Assembly: GCF_903866365.1 (NCBI RefSeq)
Contig: NZ_CAIPNF010000027.1
Span: forward strand, 1 to 64,000
Reading direction: 5' to 3'
Source: an uncultured Thiocystis sp.
GTDB lineage: Bacteria; Pseudomonadota; Gammaproteobacteria; Chromatiales; Chromatiaceae
Length of the DNA stretch: 64,000 bases
Made by a program: the position numbers and the translations under genes. How positions within the stretch are numbered: the first letter of the stretch is position 1; each line of letters opens with the position of its first letter. The notes beneath the pieces were generated by a model, which had not been told where the DNA came from, did not search any database, and saw only the letters and a program-made list of their open reading frames with translations. Positions 8,470-53,861 of this stretch are shown here, in pieces.

Positions 8470-8679
8470 TCAGGCCGTGATATTTATGTTGCGTCCGACG
8501 TTCTCGGGCAATCCCTGCCCAGGCGTCGCTGCCGGCTCGGTCGGCAACAGGGCGGCGACCGTTTCGGCCTGCATATCGAGCGATTTTTTGAGCACGGAGA
8601 CGGCGCTGGCGCTGGCCGTTTGGTTGGCGAGCATCGCGTTGGCGGCGCTGGGGATACCCGAGGTTGAAGACACGTCCAT
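8470..8679 (-). CDS. YjfB-family putative motility protein
   Basis: A 69-aa protein beginning MDVSSTSGIPSAANAM and continuing with a helical segment (LANQTASASAVSVLKKSLDMQ) and a hydrophobic tail ending NINITA. This composition and length match the small YjfB family, annotated as putative motility proteins and often FliA-controlled. ATG 8679 was chosen over upstream frame extension because a GAAGAGG ribosome site sits just before it. On the minus strand, TAAACTTT upstream resembles a FliA -35, but the spacing to CCGATTT is two bases short. Function is unknown. Confidence 0.75.
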   Translation of the reverse strand: MDVSSTSGIPSAANAMLANQTASASAVSVLKKSLDMQAETVAALLPTEPAATPGQGLPENVGRNINITA

Positions 8680-8975
8680 CGTTTGGCCTCTTCGGTTGGT
8701 CGATGCGGGCGGCTGGATCGCCGTTCCGTCTGAGGGGGAAATCCGCGCCCCGTGCATCCGGTTGGGGGCAGAACAGGCGCGGAAATCGGACCTTGGTTCA
8801 AAGTTTAGACGAATTAGCTGTCGCTGAGCGACGAATGTCGCACAATCCTGAAGATCCATTCGCGGACGCTGCCGGACATGACGCGGGATTCAGGCAGGGG
8901 CGATGGATCCTGGCGCGCTTTAGTTTCCTGTTGCCGGGCCGTTACGGAAGTTGATCCCGAATGGAGGAACCACCG
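8680..8975. other. Intergenic region between yjfB-like gene and small hypothetical gene
   Basis: About 300 bases without a convincing gene. One open frame (8664-8954, plus) has no ribosome site and low-complexity content. A 39-codon tail of it, starting at ATG 8835, cannot be excluded. The region should hold the promoters for the divergent yjfB-like gene and the plus-strand cluster at 8976-10647, but no clear box pair was seen. Confidence 0.3.
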
Positions 8976-9296
8976 ATGATGCTTAACAGTGGCGTTTCTT
9001 TCCCGTCATCCGGCGCGGTTGCGCAGGGCCCGAAATGGCGTCTTTCTCCGGAGTTGGTGGTGGGCTTTCTGCCGGCTTTCCGACATCGGTTGAGTGGTGA
9101 GGTGCGGTTGTGTCAATTAACCGACGGCCGCATTGCCCGTGTGCATCTTCTGGACTCCATGCCGGCCCATTGGGTTGCCGAGCGCGATTGGGATGGTCGT
9201 CCCTCGGCGTTGGTGGCGGCCGTGGAGCCTGGCTATCTGCGCGGCGATGCCTTCTGGCGCCTGGAGGATCTCGCGCATCCCGGTCTGGATGGTTGA
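8976..9296 (+). CDS. Hypothetical protein, 106 aa
   Basis: I do not recognise this family. The start at ATG 8976 is chosen because GGAGGA at 8963-8968 is well spaced; the in-frame ATG 8961 has none. The protein has no membrane segment. It contains tryptophan-rich patches (KWRLSPEL, AHWVAERDWDG, FWRLEDL) and an alternation of beta-prone stretches. It lies 71 bases before a PilZ gene on the same strand and may be co-transcribed with it. Its reality rests on the ribosome site, codon bias and context. Confidence 0.5.
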   Translation: MMLNSGVSFPSSGAVAQGPKWRLSPELVVGFLPAFRHRLSGEVRLCQLTDGRIARVHLLDSMPAHWVAERDWDGRPSALVAAVEPGYLRGDAFWRLEDLAHPGLDG

Positions 9297-9367
9297 TCGG
9301 CATGGCCGGCGATCTGGCCATGATGTCTCCCGTGGACACGGGAATTCTCTGTTGGCAGAGGACGAAC

Positions 9368-9685
9368 ATGGACTCCGACAAACGTCGACATCGGCGTCTT
9401 CCCCTGGAAGTCGAGGTTGAGTTGCATCGCGCCGGCCAACCGATGCGGGTGGTCCAGACCGAGGATCTCAGCGTTGGCGGGGTCTTGTTGCTTCTGGATG
9501 ACGCCGACCGTCCACCGCTGGGAACGCTGGTTCAGGTCCGGGTGGTCGGAACGCTGGGCGAAGGCGAAACCCCGCCCATGGTCGATGCAAGGGTCGTGCG
9601 TCATGCGCCCGCCGGGGTGGCGATTCAATTTTCCGACGACACGTTTTTGTCATCCGCGGACAGCCCTGTCCGTTGCGAGGTGTGA
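9368..9685 (+). CDS. PilZ-domain protein (candidate c-di-GMP receptor)
   Basis: A 105-aa single-domain PilZ protein. Both c-di-GMP-binding elements are present: RRHRR (R6 and R10 of RxxxR) and DLSVGG (D33, S35, G38 of the D/NxSxxG motif). ATG 9368 was chosen because the PilZ fold begins immediately after it and upstream sequence in frame is unrelated. The stop overlaps the next gene's start in a TGATG arrangement, implying translational coupling. It probably senses c-di-GMP and acts through a partner; its coupled neighbour is the first candidate. Confidence 0.85.
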   Translation: MDSDKRRHRRLPLEVEVELHRAGQPMRVVQTEDLSVGGVLLLLDDADRPPLGTLVQVRVVGTLGEGETPPMVDARVVRHAPAGVAIQFSDDTFLSSADSPVRCEV

Positions 9686-10647
9686 TGATGTTGCTTCCAT
9701 CCGTCGTCAGGTTGCCCCCATCCGCGGCGCCGCGGCCGGTTTCCAGCCCACCCCATGAAATCGCTCGGGCCACTGTTCGCCCGCCCGTCGCGTCCTCCGC
9801 GCCGCCCAGTGTGCCGGCGGGGGCCGGCGATCTGGCCGCCCAGATTAAAGCGAGTCTGGAGCAGGATCTTAACTACCAGATTCTGCGTAAATCCTTCCCC
9901 TTGGATGCGCAGGATTCGTCCCACCGAGCCTCGGACGGCGGACGTTCGGCGGTGCTGGAGGCGCGGATAGGCGACGGCTCCATCGCGACGGCAAACGCCG
10001 AGTTGCAGGTCTCCTGGAGTCAGGTATCGAGCGCCCGCTTTGAACTCAGCGCGAGCAGTCTCGATTCCAGCCTTGCGCTCCAATTCCAGAGTGCTCAGCG
10101 CCAGACGTTCCAGATGGACCTGCGCTCAGGAGAAACCGCCGCCGTGCAGATGGGCGATCCGCTGGTGCTGGATCTGTCCGGTCGGGGGATCGCCACCACT
10201 GGCGTCGAGGCCGGCGTCCAGTTCGATCTGACCGGCGACGGCCAGGTGGAGCAGGTGAGCTTCGTGACGGGCGATAGCTGGTTCCTGGCTCTGGATCGCA
10301 ATGGCAACGGTCAAATCGACAACGGCCTGGAGTTGTTCGGCGATCAAGGCGGCGCGGCCCATGGCTTTGCCGAACTGGCCCGCTATGACGGCAATGCCGA
10401 TGGCGTCATCGACGCTGGCGACGAGGTGTTCTCGCAACTGCGTCTGTTCCAGATCGGGAGCGATGGCGCCCAGACGCTCAAACCCCTGGAGGCGGCCGAG
10501 GTCACGGCGATCGAATTGGGCTATCAGAATACCCGCAAGGCGCTGAACGTCTACGACAGCGTGGCCCAGGTCGGTCAGTTCCAGCGTGCCGACGGGAGCA
10601 CCGGCGAGGCGTCCGACGTGTTGCTGGGATACCGCGCGCTCGCCTGA
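9685..10647 (+). CDS. Calcium-loop (EF-hand-like) hypothetical protein
   Basis: A 320-aa protein translated from ATG 9685, which overlaps the PilZ stop codon. The N-terminal 60 residues are proline/alanine-rich and disordered. The C-terminal half holds D-x-N-x-D-G type loops: FDLTGDGQVEQ, LDRNGNGQIDNG (from residue 203) and YDGNADGVIDAGDE (from residue 234). These occur within a module starting GDPLVLDLSGRGI that resembles the calcium-binding block seen in RTX-like proteins. No signal peptide or RTX nonapeptides are visible. The role is unknown. Coupling to a PilZ gene suggests a shared c-di-GMP or motility function. Confidence 0.65.
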   Translation: MMLLPSVVRLPPSAAPRPVSSPPHEIARATVRPPVASSAPPSVPAGAGDLAAQIKASLEQDLNYQILRKSFPLDAQDSSHRASDGGRSAVLEARIGDGSIATANAELQVSWSQVSSARFELSASSLDSSLALQFQSAQRQTFQMDLRSGETAAVQMGDPLVLDLSGRGIATTGVEAGVQFDLTGDGQVEQVSFVTGDSWFLALDRNGNGQIDNGLELFGDQGGAAHGFAELARYDGNADGVIDAGDEVFSQLRLFQIGSDGAQTLKPLEAAEVTAIELGYQNTRKALNVYDSVAQVGQFQRADGSTGEASDVLLGYRALA

Positions 10648-10755
10648 CAGAGTCTGCGTTTCCGCCTGGATACAAGTGACGACAAGGCATCGGTTTGCGC
10701 GCCGATGCTGCTAGACTAGGGATGACACCAGATTTGTCCATCCAGGAATCCAGCG

Positions 10756-11967
10756 ATGCAGCAGACATCAGAGGTTCTGTCGCTACTGACGGAAATCGAC
10801 CTGATTCGGGATCTTTCGGACACCGCCCGAGAGGCATTGTCCAAGCAGTGCAGTGTTGGCGAACTCGCCCCGAAAAAGCGGATTCGTCTGACCGATATCG
10901 AGGGCAACCGGCTGTTTCTGGTCGATGGCCATGCGGTGCGGCTGACGAATGGCGTCGGCGAGCGCCTGGAGAGTTATCAGGGTCTCAGCGACCCGATCGA
11001 TCTCTTCAGCGATGCCAGCGGGGCAGGGGATTTCGTCATCACGGAGACGCCCTGCATCGTGCTCAGGATCCCGGTCTCGGCCATGGAGTCGGCGTTCAAC
11101 TCCAGCCTCCAAGTCAGCGACATCGAACTCGATCCAGCCGAGGGCGAGTTTCTCGCGGAACTCTATGAACTCATTACGAGCAACCGGCTGGAGCTTCCGG
11201 CACGCCCCGAGGTGGCCCTGAAGATTCAGGAACTCACCAATGATCCGGATGCCGGGGCAGCGGAACTCACCGAGGTGATTCAACGCGATGGCACCATCGC
11301 CGGCGCGCTGCTCCATGCGACCAACAGTCCGCTGTTTCGCGGCGCGAAAGAGATCCAGTCGGTGCGCGATGCCGTGATGCGCCTGGGCTTTCGCAATACC
11401 CGGATGCTGACGACCAACCTGGCCTTGCGACAGGCCTTCAAAGCCCGGAACGAGGTCACCCGAGATGCCATGAAGGCGGTCTGGACCGATGGCGTGCTGT
11501 GTTCGGCCTACAGCTACCTTCTGTCCGACACGCTCAAGATTCTCAATCGAGAACGGGCGCTGCTGGCGGGACTGGTGGCGGGGATCGGCGCGGTACCGAT
11601 CATCCAGTTCATCGAGATGCGGGATCGCCATCCGCAACTGGACCGCATCGAGTCGCTGATTGCCAAGCTGCGCAGTATTACCGGCGTGCTGGTGATCAAC
11701 TACTGGGGGCTGGGCGAGGATCTGGTGACGGTCGCGGAGCAGTCCGGTACCTGGGAGTATCGAGCCGATGAGCCCGATTACGCGAGCGTGACCACGGTGG
11801 CGCGCTGGGCCTTTCTGCAAAGCGAAGGCCGACCGCACCCGGATGCCGCGGACGTTCCGGCGTTCGAGACCCTGGGTCTGCCGGCCCCGCCGCCTGGAGA
11901 GCCGATCGCCCAACTGGCGGGTACCGAGAAGACGCTGGCGTCCCTGAAATCGATGTTCGCCATGTGA
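10756..11967 (+). CDS. HDOD-domain protein with N-terminal cyclic-nucleotide-like domain
   Basis: A 403-aa soluble protein. Residues ~15-115 resemble a cNMP-binding beta-barrel (NRLFLVDGHAVRL, TETPCIVLRIP). Residues ~150-350 form an HDOD domain, a non-catalytic relative of HD hydrolases, with LPARPEVALKIQELT, VIQRDGTIAGALLHATNS and SVRDAVMRLGFRNTR. HDOD proteins often act in motility, c-di-GMP and stress signalling. It lies 81 bases before a second HDOD gene. A CATCGG-N8-CCGATG hairpin occurs upstream at about 10688-10707. Confidence 0.85.
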   Translation: MQQTSEVLSLLTEIDLIRDLSDTAREALSKQCSVGELAPKKRIRLTDIEGNRLFLVDGHAVRLTNGVGERLESYQGLSDPIDLFSDASGAGDFVITETPCIVLRIPVSAMESAFNSSLQVSDIELDPAEGEFLAELYELITSNRLELPARPEVALKIQELTNDPDAGAAELTEVIQRDGTIAGALLHATNSPLFRGAKEIQSVRDAVMRLGFRNTRMLTTNLALRQAFKARNEVTRDAMKAVWTDGVLCSAYSYLLSDTLKILNRERALLAGLVAGIGAVPIIQFIEMRDRHPQLDRIESLIAKLRSITGVLVINYWGLGEDLVTVAEQSGTWEYRADEPDYASVTTVARWAFLQSEGRPHPDAADVPAFETLGLPAPPPGEPIAQLAGTEKTLASLKSMFAM

Positions 11968-12047
11968 GTCCGGTGACTCGCCACAACGCCTATCATTCTG
12001 GACGCGGTTTAGTCTCGACCCCGTCAGTTTTTCCGGAGCATTCACGC

Positions 12048-12926
12048 GTGTCATCAATGACCATCGAAGCCCTTGTCAAACGGACCGGCCGGCTGCTGGC
12101 CATCCCCAAGGTGGTCGGCGACGTTCTCAAGCTGCTGGACGATCCCAACAGTCGCCAGCCGGTGATCGCCAACGTGTTGGCTCAGGATCCGGCGTTGGTC
12201 GTGATCGTGCTGCGCCTGGCCAACAGCCCCGCCTTCGCGCCCGCTCGCACCGTGGACTCCGTGGAGCGCGCGGTCATGCTCCTGGGCCGCGATCATCTCC
12301 GTCGACTGGTGATCGCGGGCGCCGTGACGCAAGCGTCGGAACGGTTGCCAGCGCAGACGCTGCTGCCGCTGGAGATGTTTTGGCACCATTCGGCCTATTG
12401 TGCGGTCATCGCGCGACTGCTGGCCGAATTGGAGTCGCCCGCCCTGGCGGGAACCGTCTTTCTGGGTGGCTTGCTGCACGATCTGGGACAATTGATTCTC
12501 TTCTCCCAGGAGCCGGAGGCCGCTCACCTGGCCTTTTTGCGCAGTCTGGGCGAGCCGGACGCCGTCACGCCACAGGACGCCGAGCGCGCCGAACTGGGTT
12601 TCGATCACGCCCAGCTTGGGGGGGCGCTGGCCGAGCACTGGGGATTGCCCGACATCCTGTGCGCCTGCCTGCGGTTTCATCATGACCCGCTGAAGGCGCC
12701 CGACGCCTTCAGGCTCCCGGTGATTCTGGTGCATCTGGCCAATACCGCCGCGCATCTCGCCGAACTCGATTCCCGGGACTGGCGCGACGCCCCTCCGGTG
12801 GATCCCGGCGTCTGGCCGTTGGTCGGCATCCGCCCCGAGGCCGTCCTGGAACTGCTGGAGAAAGCGCAGTTTCAGGTGCTGGCCGTAGAAGCCCTGCGCA
12901 ATCCTCGCTTGAACGATGAAGCCTGA
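12048..12926 (+). CDS. HDOD-domain protein
   Basis: A 292-aa protein that is essentially one HDOD domain. Typical segments are LLAIPKVVGDVLKLLDDPN, VLAQDPALVVIVLRLANS, DSVERAVMLLGRDHLRRLVI, LGGLLHDLGQLILF and LCACLRFHHDP. The HD-like LLHDLG is preserved here, unlike many HDOD proteins, so some metal binding cannot be excluded. GTG 12048 is preferred because GGAG at 12035-12038 is correctly spaced; ATG 12057 is an alternative and GTG 11964 overlaps the previous stop. Just upstream, GGACGCGGTTTAG at about 12000 matches one end of the ~86-bp repeat family. Confidence 0.85.
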   Translation: MSSMTIEALVKRTGRLLAIPKVVGDVLKLLDDPNSRQPVIANVLAQDPALVVIVLRLANSPAFAPARTVDSVERAVMLLGRDHLRRLVIAGAVTQASERLPAQTLLPLEMFWHHSAYCAVIARLLAELESPALAGTVFLGGLLHDLGQLILFSQEPEAAHLAFLRSLGEPDAVTPQDAERAELGFDHAQLGGALAEHWGLPDILCACLRFHHDPLKAPDAFRLPVILVHLANTAAHLAELDSRDWRDAPPVDPGVWPLVGIRPEAVLELLEKAQFQVLAVEALRNPRLNDEA

Positions 12927-13095: not shown

Positions 13096-13866
13096 TTAAC
13101 TCGACCCGTTCGGGGCGGAGGACGGATGGTCCGCTCCCTTCCCGTCCGCTGGCGCCCCTTCCAGCTTGATCGGTTCCAGCAAGCGGGCCTCGAAATCGGT
13201 TAGCACACTGAACTCGACCCGCCGTGACGCCCGCGGATCTTCCCGTCCGCTCGCATCCCGCACCGGGCGCGACGAGGAAAGTCCCACCGCCGCGATCCGC
13301 TCACGAAACCATTGCTCCTGTTGCAGGCTGTCCAGGCCATAGGCGAAACGCAGTACCGCCTGGGTCCGCTGCTGACTCAGGTCCATGTTGGCGAAATAGG
13401 CATCGAGCGGATTGGTGTTGGGGTTCCATTCGCTGGAGGTATGCCCTTCGACGCGGATCTCGCGGATGACCTCGCGGAAGGGGCGCAGTTGGGCGACATA
13501 GCGTGGCAGGAAGTCGCGCAGGATGGTGTCGAACTCGGGCTTGATGCGCGCCGAGTTACGATCGAACAGCACGTCCGGCTCGCGAAAGCGCAGGGTCAGC
13601 GTGGGCCGGTCGAATTCGGCGTTCCAACGCACCAGATCCTCCCGGAATTCTTCATCGAGCGCCCGGTAAATCGCCTGGCGGGACTCGACCGCGGTCATTC
13701 GCACCTCGGTTTCCACCGCATGGGTGCGTGTGACCTGGACCATGTACAGCAGGGCCAGAAACAGGAAGATCATCATCAGTGAGGACATGAGGTCGGACAG
13801 GGCGATCCAATGGAAATCGTCTTCCTGATGGGATGTTTTCGCGCTTGAGGTCGATATGCCGTTCAT
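13096..13866 (-). CDS. ZorB-like OmpA-domain stator protein
   Basis: A 256-aa MotB-like inner-membrane protein. A short cytoplasmic tail leads to one membrane helix carrying the proton-channel-type aspartate (D25 in ALSDLMSSLMMIFLFLALLYM). A periplasmic linker and an OmpA-like peptidoglycan-binding domain follow (VLFDRNSARIKPEFD, RVEGHTSSEW, DLSQQRTQAVLRF, RRVEFSV). Size and layout resemble ZorB of Zorya anti-phage systems more than flagellar MotB, which is separately encoded at 15261. Its ATG overlaps the zorA-like stop by four bases. No zorC, zorD or zorE neighbour is present. It could instead power another envelope process. Confidence 0.75.
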   Translation of the reverse strand: MNGISTSSAKTSHQEDDFHWIALSDLMSSLMMIFLFLALLYMVQVTRTHAVETEVRMTAVESRQAIYRALDEEFREDLVRWNAEFDRPTLTLRFREPDVLFDRNSARIKPEFDTILRDFLPRYVAQLRPFREVIREIRVEGHTSSEWNPNTNPLDAYFANMDLSQQRTQAVLRFAYGLDSLQQEQWFRERIAAVGLSSSRPVRDASGREDPRASRRVEFSVLTDFEARLLEPIKLEGAPADGKGADHPSSAPNGSS

Positions 13867-14960
13867 GAGCGCCCCACCACCGAGAGTTCGGGATGCGTCA
13901 CGTCGTGATGCCGACCGGTGACTCCAACCTGGCCGAGACGCTGCTGCGCGTGCAAGGCCGAGAGAACCGCGTTTTCGATGCTTTCCAGCATGGCTTTCAG
14001 ACGGGTATCGATGGCGGGGAAGGCGTCCCTGGCGCGGTCGCGCAGGTCGGCGATGCTGCCGAGCAGCGATTCCAGCTCAATGCTTTCGCGCCGCAGACCG
14101 GTCATGGTCGCGTCCTGATCCTCGATATAGCTTGAGATCTGCCGCGCCTGCTGAGTCAGTGCCTGGAGGCTCGCCTCGGACTGAGCCACACCTTCGCTGG
14201 CGCGATCGAGTTGCTGGCCCAGCGTCTCCATGTGGTCGCGGTATTGATCCTGCCAGCGCACCAGTTTTTCCACCGAGGCATCCAGACGACGGAAGTTTTC
14301 GCCGAACTGCTCGCCCAGATTGGCGTTGAAGTCGCGGATCACCGACTCCAGCGCGGCGATCAGTTGGCGCGAGCCCATTTCGCTGAGTTGCTGGGCGAAT
14401 TCGCCAAATGCCGCGAGTTGTTGCGCGTGCTGCCGCTCCAGGGTCTCGACCAGACGACTGTCCAGTTGTGCGATCCGGTCGACCAGTTGTCGGGTCGCCG
14501 CTAGTTGCGCGTCGGCGACCTGAGTCTGGTGCTGGATGAATGTCGTGGGCGTGAGGTTGTCGGTGAGTGTCAGAGCCGTCTGCGACGGTTCCGACTCCCC
14601 CGCGGCATCGACGCTCAGAACCAGCACGAGACGCAGACAAACCGCCAGCAGAATACCGCTGATGCTGGTGATGAAGGCGAGCTTGAGTCCATCGAGCAGC
14701 ATCGGAATGCTCGCTTCGATGTTCGCGACATCGAAATGCAGCAGGCCGGTGGAAATCCCGAGAAAAGTTCCCAGGATACCGAAGGTCGTCAGCAGGGTCG
14801 GGACGCTGCGGTAAAAGGCCGGTGCGCGGCGCAGCGCGATCAGGATCAGCGCGCTCGCGAACAAGCCCAACAAGAGAATGCTGAAGACGCCGATTACCAG
14901 CATGGCGTCATCCAGATGATTCAGCGTGGCAAGCAGACCGCCTGCAATCGATTCGATCAT
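13863..14960 (-). CDS. ZorA-like MotA/TolQ/ExbB-family stator protein with coiled-coil tail
   Basis: A 365-aa protein. Three membrane segments are visible near residues 18-42, 53-72 and 93-115. The conserved channel stretch is SVPTLLTTFGILGTFLGIS then SIPMLLDGLKLAFITSISG, the pattern of ZorA and related MotA/ExbB proteins. Residues ~140-330 are a long cytoplasmic coiled coil rich in Q, E, R and L. Zorya ZorA has such a tail, usually longer; MotA does not. It is translated just before the zorB-like gene. The pair would form a 5:2-type ion-driven motor by family analogy. Function here is unknown. Confidence 0.75.
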   Translation of the reverse strand: MIESIAGGLLATLNHLDDAMLVIGVFSILLLGLFASALILIALRRAPAFYRSVPTLLTTFGILGTFLGISTGLLHFDVANIEASIPMLLDGLKLAFITSISGILLAVCLRLVLVLSVDAAGESEPSQTALTLTDNLTPTTFIQHQTQVADAQLAATRQLVDRIAQLDSRLVETLERQHAQQLAAFGEFAQQLSEMGSRQLIAALESVIRDFNANLGEQFGENFRRLDASVEKLVRWQDQYRDHMETLGQQLDRASEGVAQSEASLQALTQQARQISSYIEDQDATMTGLRRESIELESLLGSIADLRDRARDAFPAIDTRLKAMLESIENAVLSALHAQQRLGQVGVTGRHHDVTHPELSVVGRS

Positions 14961-15260
14961 GACGACAACCTTCCGCTCGTTCGTCTGTCTTGGGATGCCC
15001 CAGCGGGTGACTGGAGGCGCTTACGTCAAACGAAAGCAGAATTCAAGCCAAAGTTCTTTTGGCATGACGATTATTTGATGGAACAATGGGTTGCAATCTT
15101 TGCCTGGGCTACTGAAGCACGCTTGCAACCAAGGCTGGCGCCGACTCGTCAAGATCCCGACTCTGGCAAGGCCGCTGCCGGAAACCAGGGCGACGGCGCC
15201 GATGGGGTCAGGCGAGGCGAAAGCGAGATGCAAGGCATGCGCGGTATGTCAGACGCGGCT
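14961..15260. other. 300-base gap between the zorA-like gene and motB
   Basis: No open frame here looks real; the longest (15021-15233, minus) lacks a ribosome site and any recognisable motif. The region must contain the promoter of the zorAB-like pair and the 3' end of the motAB transcript. On the minus strand TTGCAA and TAATCG lie 17 bases apart, which is too weak to call. Base composition is somewhat more AT-rich than in flanking genes. Confidence 0.4.
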
Positions 15261-16154
15261 TCAGGGGGATGTTGGCTCAACCAATTCCTTGATCGTGGTC
15301 GTCTCTTGATGGATTGCCTCATCGGTCTTTTGATTCATGACGATGATGCTGATGCGCCGATTGATGGGGCTATTGGGGGCGGCCTGGTCGAAGGGAACGG
15401 TGTCCGCGAATCCCACCACGCGGCCAACCTTTTCCGCCTGCATCCCGCCCGCGACGAGCGCGCGCCGGGCCGTATTCGCGCGTTCCGTGGAAAGCTCCCA
15501 ATTGCTGAAGTCACCGCGCGCGAGCGGGCGCGCGTCGGTGTGACCGGTGATACTGATCCGATTGGGAACCTGATTGATCATGGTGCCCAGCTCCTTGAGG
15601 ATGTCATCCGTATAGCTCTTGAGCTGCGCGCTCCCTGAATCGAACATGGAGCGATTTTCCTTGTCGACGATCTGAATGCGCAGACCTTCTGACACGATGT
15701 CGATCAGGAGCTGCTCCTTGTAAGGGATCAGCGTTTCGCTTTGCTCCAGGGCTTCCTCCAGCAGCTCCTTCAGCGATTCCAGACGTTCCTGGTCCTGAGC
15801 GGCGGCCATCTCCTCGATCCGTTGCTGATCCATGATCTCCGATGGCGACGATTCCGGGGCCATGTCGACGGCGCCTTCAAAGGCGATGATGGACGGCGTG
15901 GAGCCGGTTCCCTCGCCCTGCGCCTGGGATGGCGAGGTGCTGACACCCTCGAATGCGGAGGGATTGTTGAAATACTCCGAGATGGCCGCTTTCTGCTCCT
16001 TGGTGGTGGAACCCATGAGCCAGAGCAACATGAAGAACGCCATCATCGCGGTGGCGAAATCGGCAAAGGCGATCTTCCAGGCACCACCATGATGGCCGCC
16101 CGATTTGAACACCTTTTTGATGATGATGGGTTGTTTGTTGGTGTCAATGGCCAT
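15261..16154 (-). CDS. motB: Flagellar motor stator protein MotB
   Basis: A 297-aa stator subunit. The single membrane helix WKIAFADFATAMMAFFMLLWLMG carries the proton-relay aspartate D32. The periplasmic half has an OmpA-like peptidoglycan-binding domain (MFDSGSAQLKSY, ISITGHTDARP, NWELSTERANTARRALV, NRRISIIVMN). It follows motA after 15 bases. The basic N terminus with IIIKK and GGHHGGAWK is typical of gammaproteobacterial MotB. A second stator (motCD) is at 44.1-45.8 kb, so two exchangeable flagellar stators are expected. Confidence 0.95.
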   Translation of the reverse strand: MAIDTNKQPIIIKKVFKSGGHHGGAWKIAFADFATAMMAFFMLLWLMGSTTKEQKAAISEYFNNPSAFEGVSTSPSQAQGEGTGSTPSIIAFEGAVDMAPESSPSEIMDQQRIEEMAAAQDQERLESLKELLEEALEQSETLIPYKEQLLIDIVSEGLRIQIVDKENRSMFDSGSAQLKSYTDDILKELGTMINQVPNRISITGHTDARPLARGDFSNWELSTERANTARRALVAGGMQAEKVGRVVGFADTVPFDQAAPNSPINRRISIIVMNQKTDEAIHQETTTIKELVEPTSP

Positions 16155-16169
16155 GCAGAGTCACTCTTG

Positions 16170-17024
16170 TTATTTGCCGCCGCGCAGATGTTTTTCCAGC
16201 TCGCTGAAACTGGGTCGAAGGTCGGAAGCCATGGTTTTGCGACCAAACTCCACCGCCACCTGCGGGCTGTAACCCTGAACGTTGGCCAGAATGCAGGCCT
16301 TGATGCAGGAGAGGAAGCGCGTCTCATCGGCCGCATATCGGGCCAGCATGGTGGCGATCGGGCCGACGAAACCGTAGGCGATCAAAATACCGCTGAGGGT
16401 GCCGACCAGTGCCGCGGCGACCAGGGCGCCAACCTCCGCCATCGGACCGCCCAAGGCACCCATGGTATGCACGATGCCGAGGACAGCCGCCACAATACCG
16501 AAGGCGGGCAGGCCGTCGGCGACCTGCTGCACGGCATGCGATGCCTCTTCGGCTTCGTGGTGATGGGTGTTCAGCTCGATGTCCATGAGGTTATCCAGCT
16601 CGAACGGGTTCATGTTGCCGCTGACGACGAGCCGCATGTAGTCGGAGATGAATTCCACGGCGTGATGGTCTTTCAGGGTTCGGGGATATTTCTGGAACAG
16701 GGCACTGCTGGCTGGCTCCTCGATGTCCGGCTCGATCCCCATGAGACCTTCCTTGCGGGCCTTGGTGAAGAGGTCGTACATGAACCCCAGTGCGTCCAGA
16801 TAATCGGCCTTCTTGTACTTGGATCCGGTGAACAGGGAAGGGATGGATTTCAGCGACTTCATGACGACGCCCATGGAATTGGCGATGATGAAGCCGCCCA
16901 GGGATGCGCCCAGGATAATCACCAGTTCAAAAGGTTGCCAGATGGCCGCGATGTGACCGCCTCCCGCGGCGAATCCGCCAAGGACGGACGCAAAGACGAT
17001 GATGGAACCAAGGATCAGATTCAC
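16170..17024 (-). CDS. motA: Flagellar motor stator protein MotA
   Basis: A 284-aa four-helix membrane protein forming the ion channel with MotB. It starts MNLILGSIIVFASVLGGFAAGGG from a GTG codon, has a cytoplasmic loop with charged residues that contact FliG (YKKADYLDALGFMYDL, DHHAVEFISDYMRL) and ends with the TM3-TM4 block VADGLPAFGIVAAVLGIVHTMGALGG...LVGTLSGILIAYGFVGPI. It is the first gene of a motAB unit transcribed away from the HDOD-GAF gene. A TTATTGG-N3-CCAATAA palindrome lies in the shared upstream region. Confidence 0.96.
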   Translation of the reverse strand: MNLILGSIIVFASVLGGFAAGGGHIAAIWQPFELVIILGASLGGFIIANSMGVVMKSLKSIPSLFTGSKYKKADYLDALGFMYDLFTKARKEGLMGIEPDIEEPASSALFQKYPRTLKDHHAVEFISDYMRLVVSGNMNPFELDNLMDIELNTHHHEAEEASHAVQQVADGLPAFGIVAAVLGIVHTMGALGGPMAEVGALVAAALVGTLSGILIAYGFVGPIATMLARYAADETRFLSCIKACILANVQGYSPQVAVEFGRKTMASDLRPSFSELEKHLRGGK

Positions 17025-17166: not shown

Positions 17167-17190
17167 ATTGAATTGAATTGAATTGAATTG
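17167..17190 (+). repeat. AATTG pentamer microsatellite directly before a ribosome site
   Basis: ATTG followed by four perfect AATTG units runs straight into GGAGG (17191-17195), the ribosome site of the HDOD-GAF gene whose GTG is at 17203. Slippage here would change the untranslated leader or promoter spacing by five bases, a layout known from phase-variable genes. Whether the promoter lies close enough to matter is unknown. Confidence 0.7.
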
Positions 17191-17202
17191 GGAGGCGCTA
17201 CT

Positions 17203-18627
17203 GTGAGTTTAGGCTGGTTGACGGCGGTGACGGCCGATGCTTCGCCGGAGCAACTCCCGGTGTTGGCGTGGACACGACGGGAATTGGCGAGTCTGTTGAC
17301 GGATGAACTCGTACCGCTGCGAAAACTGTCCGCGGCGATCATGGCCGATCCGGCCATGGCCTTGCGCGTGATGCAACGGGCCAACGCGGTTCCGCACCGG
17401 CATTTCAGCGCCGAAGTCGTCATGCTGGAAGATGCGGCGCACATGCTGGGGACTCAGTCGCTTCTGCGTCTGGAATCCGAGGCCAGCGTCGCCGAGGAGG
17501 TGCTGGACGCGGAGCGGCTCGCATCCTATCGTCGGAGCGCGGGGCGGGCGGTTCTGGCCGGCTTGCTGGCTCAGGACTGGGCCGAGCTGGATCGCGACCG
17601 CTTTCCGTCCGAGGTGAGTCTGGCGGCCTTGCTGAACAATCTGGGCGAGCTGTTTCTGCTCGCGCACGGGGATGCCCGAATCAACCGCTATCTGGAACTG
17701 GTGGAGGTCAGTCATGTGCTTCCGCATGAGGCCGAATACGTCTCGCTGGGAGAGAGCCTGGAGGAATTGGGGCACGTCCTGGCCGTCCGATGGAAGCTGC
17801 CGGAGATGGTGCGGGAGGCCATGCGCGCCCGCAATGCGCGGTATCTAAGAACGCTGTGCGTGATGCTGGCGACCCAGATTGCCCGCGATGCCTTTTCCGC
17901 CTGGCGTCATCCGATGCGCCTGCGTGACCTGCGTCTGGCGGCCGAGTTGCTCAATCTCGACCTGCCGTCTTTGATTCAGCGTATCAACCGCGTGTTGGGC
18001 GCCTTCAATCCGACGGCCGCCCGCTATGGACTCGGTTCGCTGGCATTGCTGCCCCTGGAACGCGACGGCCGGCTGTCGGCGACGACGCATGCGCCTTGGA
18101 CGCCTGCTTTTTGTCTGGCACCGAGAGAGGACGATTATCTAGCCTGTCTGGCGGCGCTGAGCGATCGCTCGCTGTCCGATCGCGAGTCGGTGTTCGCGAC
18201 GTTGCTGCGTGGCCTGCATCGCGGTCTGGGGCTGAATCGCGCGGTGTTCGCGGTGTATTGTCCCCGTCGGCGGACCTTGATGGCGGAGTTTCTGGTCGGC
18301 ACGGATTTTGAGCCGACCTTCAATCGTTTCAGTCTGTCGCTCGATTCCGGAGGGCTTTTTGGCGAGTTGCTAGACGCGCCGTCCGCCCTCTGGCTGAACG
18401 AGGAAACGCAAGCCGATCTTCTGCCGCGGATCCCGCTGGAAATCGTCGAACTGATCGGCGACACGCGCTTTTTCGTCATGTCGATGTGGGTCAGTGGGCA
18501 GCCGGTGGGAGTGGTTTACGCGGATCGCCGCAGCGCGAGCTGCCGTCTGGATGCGCGCAGTTACGCCTCGTTTCTGCGTCTGGTCAGTCAGGCGGGCCTG
18601 AGACTGGAGGGCTTGGAACGGGGGTGA
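17203..18627 (+). CDS. HDOD-domain protein with C-terminal GAF-like domain
   Basis: A 474-aa soluble protein. The first ~270 residues are an HDOD domain (ELVPLRKLSAAIMADPAMALRVMQRAN, LEDAAHMLGTQSLLRLE, LAALLNNLGELFLLAHG). The catalytic HD is replaced by NN, as usual for HDOD. The C-terminal ~160 residues resemble a GAF domain (LNRAVFAVYCPRRRTLMAEFLVG, FFVMSMWVSGQPVGVVYADRR). GTG 17203 is chosen for the adjacent GGAGG. It is divergent from motAB and is the third HDOD protein in the window, so a regulatory role in motility is plausible. Confidence 0.82.
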   Translation: MSLGWLTAVTADASPEQLPVLAWTRRELASLLTDELVPLRKLSAAIMADPAMALRVMQRANAVPHRHFSAEVVMLEDAAHMLGTQSLLRLESEASVAEEVLDAERLASYRRSAGRAVLAGLLAQDWAELDRDRFPSEVSLAALLNNLGELFLLAHGDARINRYLELVEVSHVLPHEAEYVSLGESLEELGHVLAVRWKLPEMVREAMRARNARYLRTLCVMLATQIARDAFSAWRHPMRLRDLRLAAELLNLDLPSLIQRINRVLGAFNPTAARYGLGSLALLPLERDGRLSATTHAPWTPAFCLAPREDDYLACLAALSDRSLSDRESVFATLLRGLHRGLGLNRAVFAVYCPRRRTLMAEFLVGTDFEPTFNRFSLSLDSGGLFGELLDAPSALWLNEETQADLLPRIPLEIVELIGDTRFFVMSMWVSGQPVGVVYADRRSASCRLDARSYASFLRLVSQAGLRLEGLERG

Positions 18628-18645: not shown

Positions 18646-18930
18646 TCATCCCAGATCCAGGTTACGGACCTTCTGACGCCGGCGCGTGGTCGCGAGCGCG
18701 AAGTTGACGGCATCCGACACCTCTTCCAGCAGGTTTCTTTGGTCGGCATCGCTGAGATGCGATGCCAGATCGACCGAATGACGCACATACCGCGGAGGCA
18801 GGTAATTCAATGCGACGCAGGCAAGGTCTTCGGCGTACTCGGCATCCAGGGGGTTGCCGTTCTCGTCCAGAGTGTCATGGAGCCGTTCCATGACGAGGCG
18901 TTCGAAATAATTGCCGATACTCGATAGCAT
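18646..18930 (-). CDS. ComFB-family protein (candidate c-di-GMP receptor)
   Basis: A 94-aa protein starting MLSSIGNYFERLVMERLHD and containing EDLACVALNYLPPRYVRHSVDLASHL, the hallmark of the late-competence ComFB family. ComFB-domain proteins have been reported as cyclic dinucleotide receptors in cyanobacteria, so c-di-GMP sensing is a reasonable hypothesis here. ATG 18930 is preferred over an upstream TTG because AAGG lies just before it and the family starts there. It is convergent with the HDOD-GAF gene and divergent from the PilZ-like/fleQ unit. Confidence 0.8.
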   Translation of the reverse strand: MLSSIGNYFERLVMERLHDTLDENGNPLDAEYAEDLACVALNYLPPRYVRHSVDLASHLSDADQRNLLEEVSDAVNFALATTRRRQKVRNLDLG

Positions 18931-19099
18931 GTTTCTGACCTTGTCGAGGCGAACTTGAAGGGAAGGTGACGTCAATGCAAGGATGTCGATGCGCGCATTT
19001 TAGCAAGTCGGAGCGGCCAGGGTACGAACGGCTTTCCCATCGATCCTGAAGCGGTTAGCATCACGGCAATTCCTAAAGTTAGACAGTATCAGGTGAATC

Positions 19100-19681
19100 A
19101 TGGAGATCGATGACTGGCGGGACGTGTTGGGCGATGGCCTCGCGGTGACCCTGGAATTGCCAGTCGTGCCAAGCGACCGGATGCCATCGACCAGCGACGC
19201 GGCGGCGCATCTTCTGGAGGCGATCGCCGTGCTTGAGGCTGAAGCGCAGGGTCGCGCGAACGAGGAGCCGCTGCCGCCCGAATTGATCCGCCTGGAACTC
19301 AAGATCGATTTGCTCATGGATCTTGTGACCACGCTGCTGGCGGATAAAATACCGAAGCGTTCGAAGGTCAGGATCAGCAGCGATGGACTGGTGCTTCCCG
19401 CAGATTTACTGACGCCCGACTGCGACCGCATCGAATTGTACCCCTGCCATTGGCTGGCGCAGCCTCTGGTTCTGGAGTTGGGCAGGATCGAGTGTCGCGA
19501 TCACGTCTGCGGCGCCACCTGGCGCTCCCCCGATCACGGACTTCGAGAGGTCTTGCGGCGCTGGGTCTTTCGCCTGCATCGCCGCGAGGTCGCGCGTCGA
19601 CGGCACCAGTCCGGCGAGGCCCGGACAGCGGCCGCGTGGTCTTCCTCCAGCACGCCCATGTACGCCGACAAGACGGTTTGA
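19100..19681 (+). CDS. Atypical PilZ-like protein upstream of fleQ
   Basis: A 193-aa protein. A helical segment ([21 protein letters not shown], about residues 62-82) precedes a short beta-rich region starting [15 protein letters not shown], which resembles the second PilZ motif in weakened form. No RxxxR is present before it. The C terminus is arginine- then serine-rich. Proteins with this arrangement are annotated as PilZ-domain proteins in related genomes; c-di-GMP binding is doubtful from sequence. It ends 56 bases before fleQ on the same strand, so it may act as a partner of FleQ. Confidence 0.55.
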
Positions 19682-19737
19682 ACAGCGAGTCGAAGGACAG
19701 CGTCTACGGTCCCGGACAAGGGGAATCCGCACAGGTG

Positions 19738-21090
19738 ATGAAAATTGGTCTGTCCGGTCAAGCGGAGGTGCGCGCCGAGACGCGCTGTATCCTGGAATTT
19801 CTGGGCTGCGAGGTCCGCGATTTCGTCAGCCTGGCGGCCGTGCATGACGACGATTTGAACGCGCTCTGGCTCTGCGAACCGTCCGCGCGTCTCGCCGCTC
19901 TGCTCGACGCTTTGCCATCGTCGCGCCGGATACCGGTCGTCTGTCAACCTACGGACGGTGTCATGAGCGCTGTCCCGCCGCGAACCTTGACCGTGTCGTC
20001 TCCTCTATCGCCGGGCAAGGTGATTCAGATCCTGCAATGGTTGCGGTGCGAAGCCGAATCCGATCCGGTGCCCGATGTCGATCTGGTCGGACGCCATCCG
20101 GCCATGCTGGCGGTCAAACGTCTGATTGGCCAGGTCGCGAAGAGCGATGCGACCGTGCTCATCCTCGGCGAGACCGGCTCCGGCAAGGAGGTGGTCGCGC
20201 GCGCCATCCACGATGCATCGAGTCGCCGCGGCAAACCCTTCGTGGCCGTCAACTGTGGCGCGATCCCGGCCGACTTGTTGGAAAGCGAACTCTTCGGTCA
20301 TGAGAAAGGCGCTTTCACGGGCGCTTTCACGGCCCGCGCCGGGCGTTTCGAACTGGCCGAGGATGGCGTGCTCTTTCTCGACGAGATCGGCGATATGCCG
20401 TTGCCCATGCAGGTCAAGCTCTTGCGTGTGTTGCAGGAACGTACCTTCGAGCGGGTGGGCTCGAACAAGCCGCTCCAGACCAAGGCCCGCATCATTTCGG
20501 CGACACACCGCAATCTTGAAGAGGCCGTCGCGGTCGGAAACTTCCGGCAGGATCTGTTTTTTCGTCTCAATGTCTTTCCGATCGAGCTGCCCTCTCTGCG
20601 GGAACGCCAGAGCGATATTCCACTGCTGATCGCGACCCTCGAAGCGCGTCTGAGAGAGCATGGGGTGGAACCGGCCTATCTGACCCCGGCCGTTCTGACG
20701 CATCTGGAGCAACAGGACTGGCCTGGTAATATTCGGGAGTTGGCAAATCTACTCGAACAGCTCTCGATCATGTATCCCGGTCTGCTGGTGGATCTGCCAC
20801 AATTGCCAACCCGGTTCCGACCGGCGCACCTGGAGTCGCTACCGGTCATGGATGCGCGCGACCGTCGGGTCGCTGAAGCCGATACCGACTTGTTGCATCC
20901 GTTGCCCCCGGAAGGTCGCGAATTACGCGAATACCTCAACGAGCTGGAGCGCGGCATGATTGTCGCGGCGCTTGAGCAGAACGATCAGGTCGTCGCGCGG
21001 GCCGCCAGGCGTTTGGGGATGCGGCGCACGACCCTGGTCGAGCGCATGCGCAAGTTCGGTCTCGAACGGGATGCGGCCGACACAACATAA
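19738..21090 (+). CDS. fleQ: FleQ, sigma-54-dependent flagellar master activator
   Basis: A 450-aa enhancer-binding protein. Residues 1-105 are a degenerate receiver-like FleQ domain without a phosphorylatable aspartate pattern. The AAA+ domain has Walker A GETGSGKE (144-151), the sigma-54 contact loop GAFTGA (191-196) and Walker [13 protein letters not shown] Fis-type helix-turn-helix closes the protein ([25 protein letters not shown]). ATG 19738 is preceded by AAGGGGA; nearby GTG codons are alternatives. The LFRS c-di-GMP contact motif of Pseudomonas FleQ is replaced by PDVD. No fleSR pair follows. Confidence 0.93.
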
Positions 21091-44111: not shown

Positions 44112-44855
44112 ATGGATATCCTGAGCATGGCCGGGATCCTGCTGGGTCTCGTCGCCATCCTGGGGGGCGCGGTCGCGAAAGGTAGCAGTCTGGGGGCGCT
44201 CTGGAATCTGGCCGCCTTTGTCATTGTGATCATCGGCACCCTGGGCGCCACGCTGGTGCAGACGCGTGCCCCGATCTTTTTGCATGCCTTCAAGATCGTG
44301 CCCTGGGTGTTCATGCCGCCCAGTCTCAACCCGCGATCCATGATCGTGCGTATCGTCGAATGGTCCCATCTGTCGCGCAAGGAAGGTCTGCTGGGCCTGG
44401 AGGATCAGTCGGAAGTGGAAACCGATCCCTTTGTTCGCAAGGGACTTCAACTGCTGGTTGACGGGACCGAGCCGCTGGCGTTGCGGCAAATTCTGGAAGC
44501 GGATCTGGACAACCGCGAAGCCTTCGATCTGCAGGGCGCCAAGGTGTTCGAGAGCATGGGAATCTATTCGCCGACGCTGGGGATCATTGGCGCCGTTATG
44601 GGACTGATGGCGGTCATGCAGAATCTGGCCGATCCCAGCAAGCTTGGACATGGCATCGCGGCGGCTTTCGTCGCGACCATCTACGGCGTTGGCCTGGCCA
44701 ATTTGCTTTTTCTACCCATGTACAACAAACTCAAGGGAATCGTTCAGGCACGGACAAATTATCAGACGATGCTGCTTGAAGGCTTGATTGCGATTGCCGA
44801 GGGTGAAAATCCGCGTCATATCGAAAACAAGCTGAACGGCTTTATCCAGGGCTGA
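44112..44855 (+). CDS. motC: MotC/PomA-type flagellar stator protein
   Basis: A 247-aa MotA-family protein with four membrane helices. Features are GLVAILGGAVAKGSSLGALWN, the cytoplasmic HLSRKEGLLGLEDQ and the channel block ESMGIYSPTLGIIGAVMGLMAVMQNL with HGIAAAFVATIYGVGLANLLFLP. It begins directly after the cheB stop, as motCD does in Pseudomonas. It forms the second flagellar stator with MotD. Confidence 0.93.
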   Translation: MDILSMAGILLGLVAILGGAVAKGSSLGALWNLAAFVIVIIGTLGATLVQTRAPIFLHAFKIVPWVFMPPSLNPRSMIVRIVEWSHLSRKEGLLGLEDQSEVETDPFVRKGLQLLVDGTEPLALRQILEADLDNREAFDLQGAKVFESMGIYSPTLGIIGAVMGLMAVMQNLADPSKLGHGIAAAFVATIYGVGLANLLFLPMYNKLKGIVQARTNYQTMLLEGLIAIAEGENPRHIENKLNGFIQG

Positions 44856-44864
44856 CAACCGGTC

Positions 44865-45779
44865 ATGGCGAGGCGAAAAAAGCAGGAAGAGCACGGGAAC
44901 CATGAGGCATGGGCGATCCCTTATGGCGATCTGGTCACCCTCCTGATGGCCTTTTTTGTCGTGATGTACGCCGTGTCCGTGGTCGACGCCGGCAAATACC
45001 GTGTCTTGTCCAACTCGCTGGTCGAGGCCTTCGGCTCGCAGGTGCCGGTGGATCCTATCCAGATCGGGGAACCGAGTCTTGCACTGAATCTAATGAGCGA
45101 CGATGTGCATCGTTCGCTTGTACCGATCGAGATTGAGAGCGGCGCTACGTCCCGGCAAGGCGAGATGACCATCCAGGATCTGTTATCGCCGTCGGATGTC
45201 GCCATCGAAAACACACTTGAGTTGCTCGAAGGCGAGGAACGCGCTCGCATTCTCAACGAAATCGGAGAACTGTCCGAGGAGATCGAGTCATCGCTCGGAT
45301 CGCTGATCCAGGATGACGAGATCCAGGTGACGCGCAAACCCTACTGGCTTGAGATTGCGATCAACTCCAACCTCCTGTTTTCGAGCGGATCCGCGACGCT
45401 GGAACCAGTTGCGCGTCCCGTGCTTGAGAACGTGGCCGCGATCCTTGCCAAGCGGGACGCGCGGATCCATGTCGAGGGCCACACCGATAATTTACCGATC
45501 AGCAATTCGACCTATCCGTCCAATTGGGAGCTGTCGTCCGGTCGCGCCGCGACGGTCGTCAACCTCTTCGCTCAGAATGGGGTCGATCCGGAGCGGATGG
45601 TCGCGATCGGATATGCCGAATTTCAGCCACTGGCCAGCAACGCGGCGGATAAAGGGCGGGCGCGGAATCGTCGTGTCGCGGTGATCGTGCTGCCGGGCCC
45701 GCCGCCGCGTTCGGGTAAGGCCATCGAGCCCGAGCGGCTGCGCAGCGACTACGAAGCCGAGATCGGGCGAATTCAATAA
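44865..45779 (+). CDS. motD: MotD-type flagellar stator protein
   Basis: A 304-aa MotB-family protein. The TM helix GDLVTLLMAFFVVMYAVS carries the ion-relay aspartate D22. The OmpA-like domain shows LLFSSGSATLEPVARPVLENVA, HVEGHTDNLPI and NWELSSGRAATVVNLF. It lies 9 bases after motC. Ion choice (proton or sodium) cannot be told from sequence alone. Confidence 0.94.
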   Translation: MARRKKQEEHGNHEAWAIPYGDLVTLLMAFFVVMYAVSVVDAGKYRVLSNSLVEAFGSQVPVDPIQIGEPSLALNLMSDDVHRSLVPIEIESGATSRQGEMTIQDLLSPSDVAIENTLELLEGEERARILNEIGELSEEIESSLGSLIQDDEIQVTRKPYWLEIAINSNLLFSSGSATLEPVARPVLENVAAILAKRDARIHVEGHTDNLPISNSTYPSNWELSSGRAATVVNLFAQNGVDPERMVAIGYAEFQPLASNAADKGRARNRRVAVIVLPGPPPRSGKAIEPERLRSDYEAEIGRIQ

Positions 45780-53844: not shown

Positions 53845-53861
53845 CTGGCGCATAGCTTGCA
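53845..53861 (+). promoter_or_regulatory. Sigma-54 (-24/-12) promoter for flgB
   Basis: CTGGCGCATAGCTTGCA matches the sigma-54 consensus YTGGCACGNNNNTTGCW at 11 of 13 defined positions, with GG at 53847-53848 and GC at 53859-53860, ten bases apart. Transcription would start about 40 bases before the flgB ATG. FleQ is the expected activator; its upstream site is not identifiable by eye. Confidence 0.8.

Follow-up and report, generated by a model that had tools for sequence, protein, structure and literature searches.

Motors of the Zorya family are built of five ZorA subunits placed round two ZorB subunits; ions flow past an aspartate of ZorB, the assembly is anchored to the peptidoglycan, and the five ZorA tails form a cytoplasmic rod (PMC11890865). 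In the type II Zorya that has been tested, all components were required for protection against phage T7 (PMC11890865). A literature search for ZorAB with a non-defence function found none, ZorAB being described there only as a defence motor. In this work we have analyzed a pair of zorAB-like genes located in a stretch of 64,000 nucleotides (the window) from an uncultured Thiocystis sp. (contig NZ_CAIPNF010000027.1, positions 1 to 64,000). We consider it rather likely that the pair encodes a Zorya-II-type ZorA5B2 rotary motor which lies outside any defence locus and, in purple sulfur bacteria and Thioalkalivibrio, has been recruited into the FleQ/sigma-54 flagellar regulon.

The zorA-like gene (13863..14960, minus strand) encodes a protein of 365 amino acids with three membrane helices followed by a helical tail in the cytoplasm, and the zorB-like gene (13096..13866, minus strand) a protein of 256 amino acids in which one membrane helix carrying the ion-channel residue Asp25 is followed by an OmpA-type peptidoglycan-binding domain. 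A check of the open reading frames placed both genes where a sequence-only reading of this DNA had put them, with an overlap of 4 bases. In the structure model the ZorA-like membrane helices lie at residues 19-43, 47-74 and 81-119 with short loops between them, and the tail is a single predicted helix (140-346); the three helices and the long helical tail of that reading stand, and its estimate of about 190 residues of coiled coil is to be replaced by about 207. The ZorB-like model comprises a long N-terminal helix bearing Asp25 and an OmpA fold (PF00691, 39 bits), as had been proposed for this partner. Asp25 lies within HWIALSDLMSSLMM and is invariant across 19 aligned relatives, and the GHTSS motif of the ZorB peptidoglycan-binding domain is present in all the sequences compared.

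The proposed kinship with ZorAB was supported by profile searches, in which the top PADLOC models were ZorA2 (218 bits) for the zorA-like and ZorB2 (267 bits) for the zorB-like product; the NCBIfam type II Zorya equivalog cut-offs were missed by both (ZorA2 159.9 of 700 bits, ZorB2 209.4 of 400 bits). By sequence and fold comparison the nearest solved structure for both subunits is 8VVI, the type II ZorAB of Sulfuricurvum kujiense (sequence matches with E 1e-34 for ZorA-like and 1e-46 for ZorB-like). Like this system and that of E. coli ATCC 8739, the pair combines a ZorA of three helices, in which Thr65 and Ser99 are conserved and which extends into the cytoplasm as a helical tail, a ZorB with a channel aspartate and an OmpA peptidoglycan-binding domain, adjacent and often overlapping genes, and the tail motif FN..L..QFG.NF. 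The parts needed for the working of a ZorA5B2 motor are conserved in the window pair. The same overlapping zorA-zorB arrangement is kept in orthologues of many genera, so the pair is more than a chance neighbourhood.

The pair belongs to what we call the orphan clade, 36 loci from flagellated Chromatiaceae (purple sulfur bacteria) and Thioalkalivibrio, which was compared with 44 next-nearest relatives. It is monophyletic with 100% support in the ZorB tree and 98% in the ZorA-core tree, and in both trees it is separated from the Mot and ExbB proteins of the same genome; placement inside the MotAB or ExbBD clades, the outcome named by the sequence-only reading as speaking against ZorAB kinship, was not seen. 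In a search of 141 relatives the ZorB orthologues formed one set of 69-93% identity, all from a single bacterial family, represented in named genomes of Thiocystis, Chromatium, Thiobaca, Allochromatium, Imhoffiella, Thiorhodococcus, Rhabdochromatium, Marichromatium, Thiospirillum and Thiorhodovibrio; 13 orthologues from named Thioalkalivibrio genomes were 60-67% identical, and other relatives reached at most 48%. From genome to genome, ZorB distances are correlated with those of GyrB (Spearman 0.49; 0 of 2000 permutations as high), and no orthologue of the pair was found on PLSDB plasmids. The orphan pair is conserved, chromosomal and mostly vertically inherited. In Chromatium okenii LaCa (L045, L072) zorA is present in two overlapping frames, which may reflect either an error of long-read assembly or a pseudogene, and one Thiorhodovibrio metagenome-assembled genome has zorB without zorA.

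Unlike type II Zorya systems, the orphan pair has no ZorE. Within the available flank, ZorE was found beside none of the 36 orphan loci (L069 and L081 having less than 400 bases of downstream sequence); it directly follows zorB in 43 of the 44 next-nearest relatives. The absence of an effector nearby, pointed out in the sequence-only reading, extends further, as neither an intact ZorE nor a ZorC domain (PF15611) was found in the window's genome. The ZorA tail motif is common to the orphan pair and to ZorE-bearing systems, and the part of the tail past it is uniformly shorter in the orphan clade (146-171 aa versus 199-539 aa in the ZorE-bearing loci in which the motif was found). At one locus (L063 of G136, 8610-11197) a short-tailed ZorA of 335 aa and a ZorB are accompanied by a third, divergent protein resembling ZorE (52 bits), hence short ZorA occurs with ZorE too. 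The trees put the orphan clade among ZorE-bearing lineages; an arrangement with the ZorE-bearing rows on one side of a branch was not rejected by the approximately unbiased (AU) test (p 0.43), and loss of ZorE is therefore not proved.

A partnership of ZorAB with effectors from unlinked genes, one of the options of the sequence-only reading, is very unlikely, since genome searches have mostly refuted it for ZorE, ZorC and ZorF. Type II Zorya with a ZorA of 713-963 aa and ZorE does exist in the same family and in two cases shares a genome with the orphan pair, and a second ZorB is present in three genomes (G025, G037 and G160), two of which (G025 and G037) have a complete ZorA-ZorB-ZorE locus. 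However, a complete ZorE was found in just 2 of the 21 carrier genomes searched, there paired with its own ZorAB; PF15611 was found in 2 of 26 carriers and not in the other 24, and ZorF (PF11828) in 0 of 26, by a search that had no positive control and that included neither ZorD nor ZorG. The window's genome has only a C-terminal ZorE fragment (L224, G000:C472, 3763-4014), scoring 80 bits over about 84 positions and containing a stop, which lies between two large helicase-like genes with no ZorA or ZorB adjoining and is probably the decayed remnant of a type II Zorya.

Putative regulatory sites of the kind that serves flagellar genes precede the pair. A sigma-54 promoter-like site, TGGCTTGAATTCTGCT (15035..15050, minus strand), lies 74 bp upstream of the zorA start, and a FleQ-box-like site, GTCGGGATCTTGAC (15148..15161, minus strand), agreeing with the consensus at 8 of 10 positions, is located 97 bp upstream of the sigma-54 site. 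When the pattern TGG[C/T]-N8-TGC[A/T/G] was sought 30-130 bp before the zorA start codon, it was present in 33 of the 36 orphan loci, as compared with 0.45 (maximum 3) for base-shuffled regions, which overstate independence because the loci are related by descent, and 0.9 (maximum 5) for random stretches of the same loci; among ZorE-bearing loci it was present in 1 of 38. The match is missing from the scanned interval in Thioalkalivibrio L099, Chromatium okenii L073 and Thiospirillum L089, and the choice of zorA start is unsure for L096 and L099. The FleQ box, defined as the inverted repeat GTCAA-N4-TTGAC and counted when at least 8 of 10 positions agreed, was found further upstream in 29 of 36 orphan loci, four of them with perfect repeats (shuffles 1.6, maximum 6; random stretches 2.4, maximum 6), and in none of 39 ZorE-bearing loci. 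Both sites occur together in 28 of the 36. The repeat matches the published FleQ consensus, GTCaNTAAAtTGAC (PMC8125075; PMC10723142).

These sites persist though the surrounding sequence and the neighbouring genes vary, and they are retained where zorAB is remote from flagellar genes, as at its position next to glnD in Thioalkalivibrio. The gene for sigma-54, rpoN, is present in all 24 genomes tested. Rod and hook genes of polar flagellates are driven by sigma-54 (PMC7064773), and in the window the same class of promoter-like site, TGGCGCATAGCTTGCA (53846..53861, plus strand), stands on the flagellar rod genes, 51 bp upstream of flgB. Other modes of control were considered as well. Sites for sigma-28 (FliA) and sigma-70 showed no consistent excess over shuffles upstream of zorA; NtrC sites showed no excess there, so nitrogen control via NtrC is unsupported despite the adjacency to glnD in Thioalkalivibrio. 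Transcription solely by read-through from motB, the gene upstream of zorA in the window, is unlikely, given that the 300-bp gap contains sites belonging to zorA and that in many genomes no motB adjoins zorA.

The distribution of the pair follows that of flagella, scored by the presence of FliF. Among 116 genomes of the family FliF is present in 75 and zorAB in 23, all of them FliF-positive, and none of the 41 genomes without FliF carries zorAB. In the 41 phototrophs, 23 have both, 5 flagella only, none the pair only and 13 neither (Fisher p 5e-7); Pagel's test on the gyrB tree gave p 5e-4. All 18 genomes reached via named loci (13 Thioalkalivibrio) are FliF-positive too, some of which may duplicate genomes already counted. 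The sequence-only reading had held that consistent co-occurrence with a known non-defence system would count against defence, and such a system has been found in the flagellum; its alternative that the pair modulates motility gains support from the FleQ box, the sigma-54 promoter and this co-occurrence.

Stand-alone or flagellum-linked phage defence, in which ZorAB would sense phage entry and be made together with the flagellum owing to flagellum-binding phages, either with no dedicated effector or with an uncharacterised one, seems to us improbable. Both subunits are closest to Zorya type II, with Asp25, the GHTSS motif and the tail motif of ZorE-bearing systems conserved, and flagellar co-expression would suit protection against flagellotropic phages. 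This sits poorly with the dependence of the tested type II system on every component and with the absence of ZorE beside all orphan loci and from most carrier genomes. Unlike type II Zorya, moreover, the orphan pair is a conserved chromosomal gene set of flagellated lineages with a FleQ box and a sigma-54 promoter and scores under the equivalog cut-offs; such inheritance and such a promoter are unlike those of a defence island.

The pair has also been described, in the sequence-only reading, as a third stator-like unit in a flagellar cluster. This is correct, since motAB and motCD are both in the window: motB (15261..16154, minus strand) and motA (16170..17024, minus strand) are flagellar stator subunits of a separate unit with its own family (matches to TIGR03818, 385 bits, and NF006548, 364 bits), 300 bp upstream of zorAB on the same strand, and motC-motD (44112..45779, plus strand) is the second flagellar stator pair. 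With these zorAB shares the ion-driven motor superfamily, a peptidoglycan-binding B subunit, the flagellar cluster and apparently flagellar regulation, and in several genera it lies a few hundred bp from motAB. Nevertheless, a true third stator, inserted round the rotor and driving or braking FliG as MotAB and MotCD do, is highly doubtful: the three-helix ZorA with its few-residue loops is without the cytoplasmic torque-generating domain of MotA, no MotA model was among its family-scan matches, the plug domain PF13677 was matched in motB but not in zorB, and both subunits fall outside the Mot groups in trees. As ZorA is without the cytoplasmic domain by which MotA contacts FliG, zorAB is regarded here as an accessory motor and not as a torque-generating flagellar stator. 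ExbBD and TolQR have in common with the pair a three-helix A subunit of the MotA/TolQ/ExbB superfamily, but the B subunit of zorAB is of OmpA and not ExbD type, and its A subunit is long-tailed, placed apart in trees and below the PF01618 cut-off (19 bits; cut-off 22.9).

We thus return to the recruitment of a Zorya-type motor into the flagellar regulon. Taken together, the absence of ZorE and the FleQ control point to the motile state as the one that zorAB most likely serves, probably as an accessory motor, and they suggest the takeover of a defence-type motor for motility. FleQ and sigma-54 would switch the zorAB operon on along with the flagellar genes; the OmpA domain of ZorB would anchor to the peptidoglycan, and protonation of Asp25 would power the turning of five ZorA about the ZorB dimer. 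The five ZorA tails would form a cytoplasmic rod of about 30 nm which, by turning or rearranging, could act on a partner in motile cells such as the basal body, the pole or the chemoreceptor array. We give roughly even chances to the stronger proposal that this clade provides the first example of a Zorya-type motor that works outside defence. On that view its ZorAB either lost the nuclease or was always without one, came under FleQ control and now serves motile cells as a third rotary motor, with the rod acting on the flagellar pole or on a cytoplasmic partner.

Several points weigh against this interpretation. The lineage of zorAB and its regulatory sites can be read from the sequence, but its function in motility is one that we infer. 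FleQ binding is predicted through a consensus defined in Pseudomonas, with which the window's own box agrees at 8 of 10 positions. FleQ controls biofilm genes as well, so its control would mark the switch between motile and sessile life and not necessarily the flagellar machine. The pair is not required for a flagellum, as 52 of the 75 flagellated family members (5 phototrophs and 47 others) are without it. An independent-pairs test pointed in the same direction as the other association tests but, with only some two informative pairs, lacked power, and the model of the ZorA tail helix was built on a shallow alignment, with a mean predicted local distance difference test score (pLDDT) of 68.

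If the interpretation is true, a ZorAB lineage in the flagellar regulon shows that such motors pass between immunity and motility, and it offers a natural nuclease-free motor-and-rod for asking what the rod does. It would also be a caution for defence catalogues, in which high-scoring ZorAB matches would not always be Zorya systems.

The surroundings of the pair are variable. In several genera zorAB has motAB on one side and two HDOD genes on the other, within a flagellar cluster, elsewhere it adjoins HDOD genes only, and in other settings without a nearby flagellar gene it lies beside glmS, gpmI, rapA, nhaD or glnD (names from translations). Of the gene order, therefore, the zorA-zorB overlap is conserved and the adjacency to motAB is not, zorAB being located elsewhere in many genera. 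A constant third gene was sought beside the orphan pair and none was found, HDOD genes and motAB being frequent in Chromatiaceae but not constant. The window encodes a fleQ/flrA-type flagellar master regulator, a sigma-54 activator, beside fliE (19450..21090, plus strand; true start probably downstream of 19450), for which FleQ and FlrA are the best matches among solved structures. Three HDOD genes (10756-12926 and 17188-18627) flank the motAB-zorAB block and accompany it in many Chromatiaceae. Between an HDOD gene and fleQ (18646-19681) there are a gene with a ComFB domain (65 bits) and another of an atypical PilZ type, possibly cyclic di-GMP-related genes of the flagellar cluster. In two genomes (G078:C1:2941164-2942648 and G032:C44:119633-121117) the gyrB match breaks off at position 496 of the model, within frames that are 1432 and 1274 residues long, which suggests an intein in GyrB.
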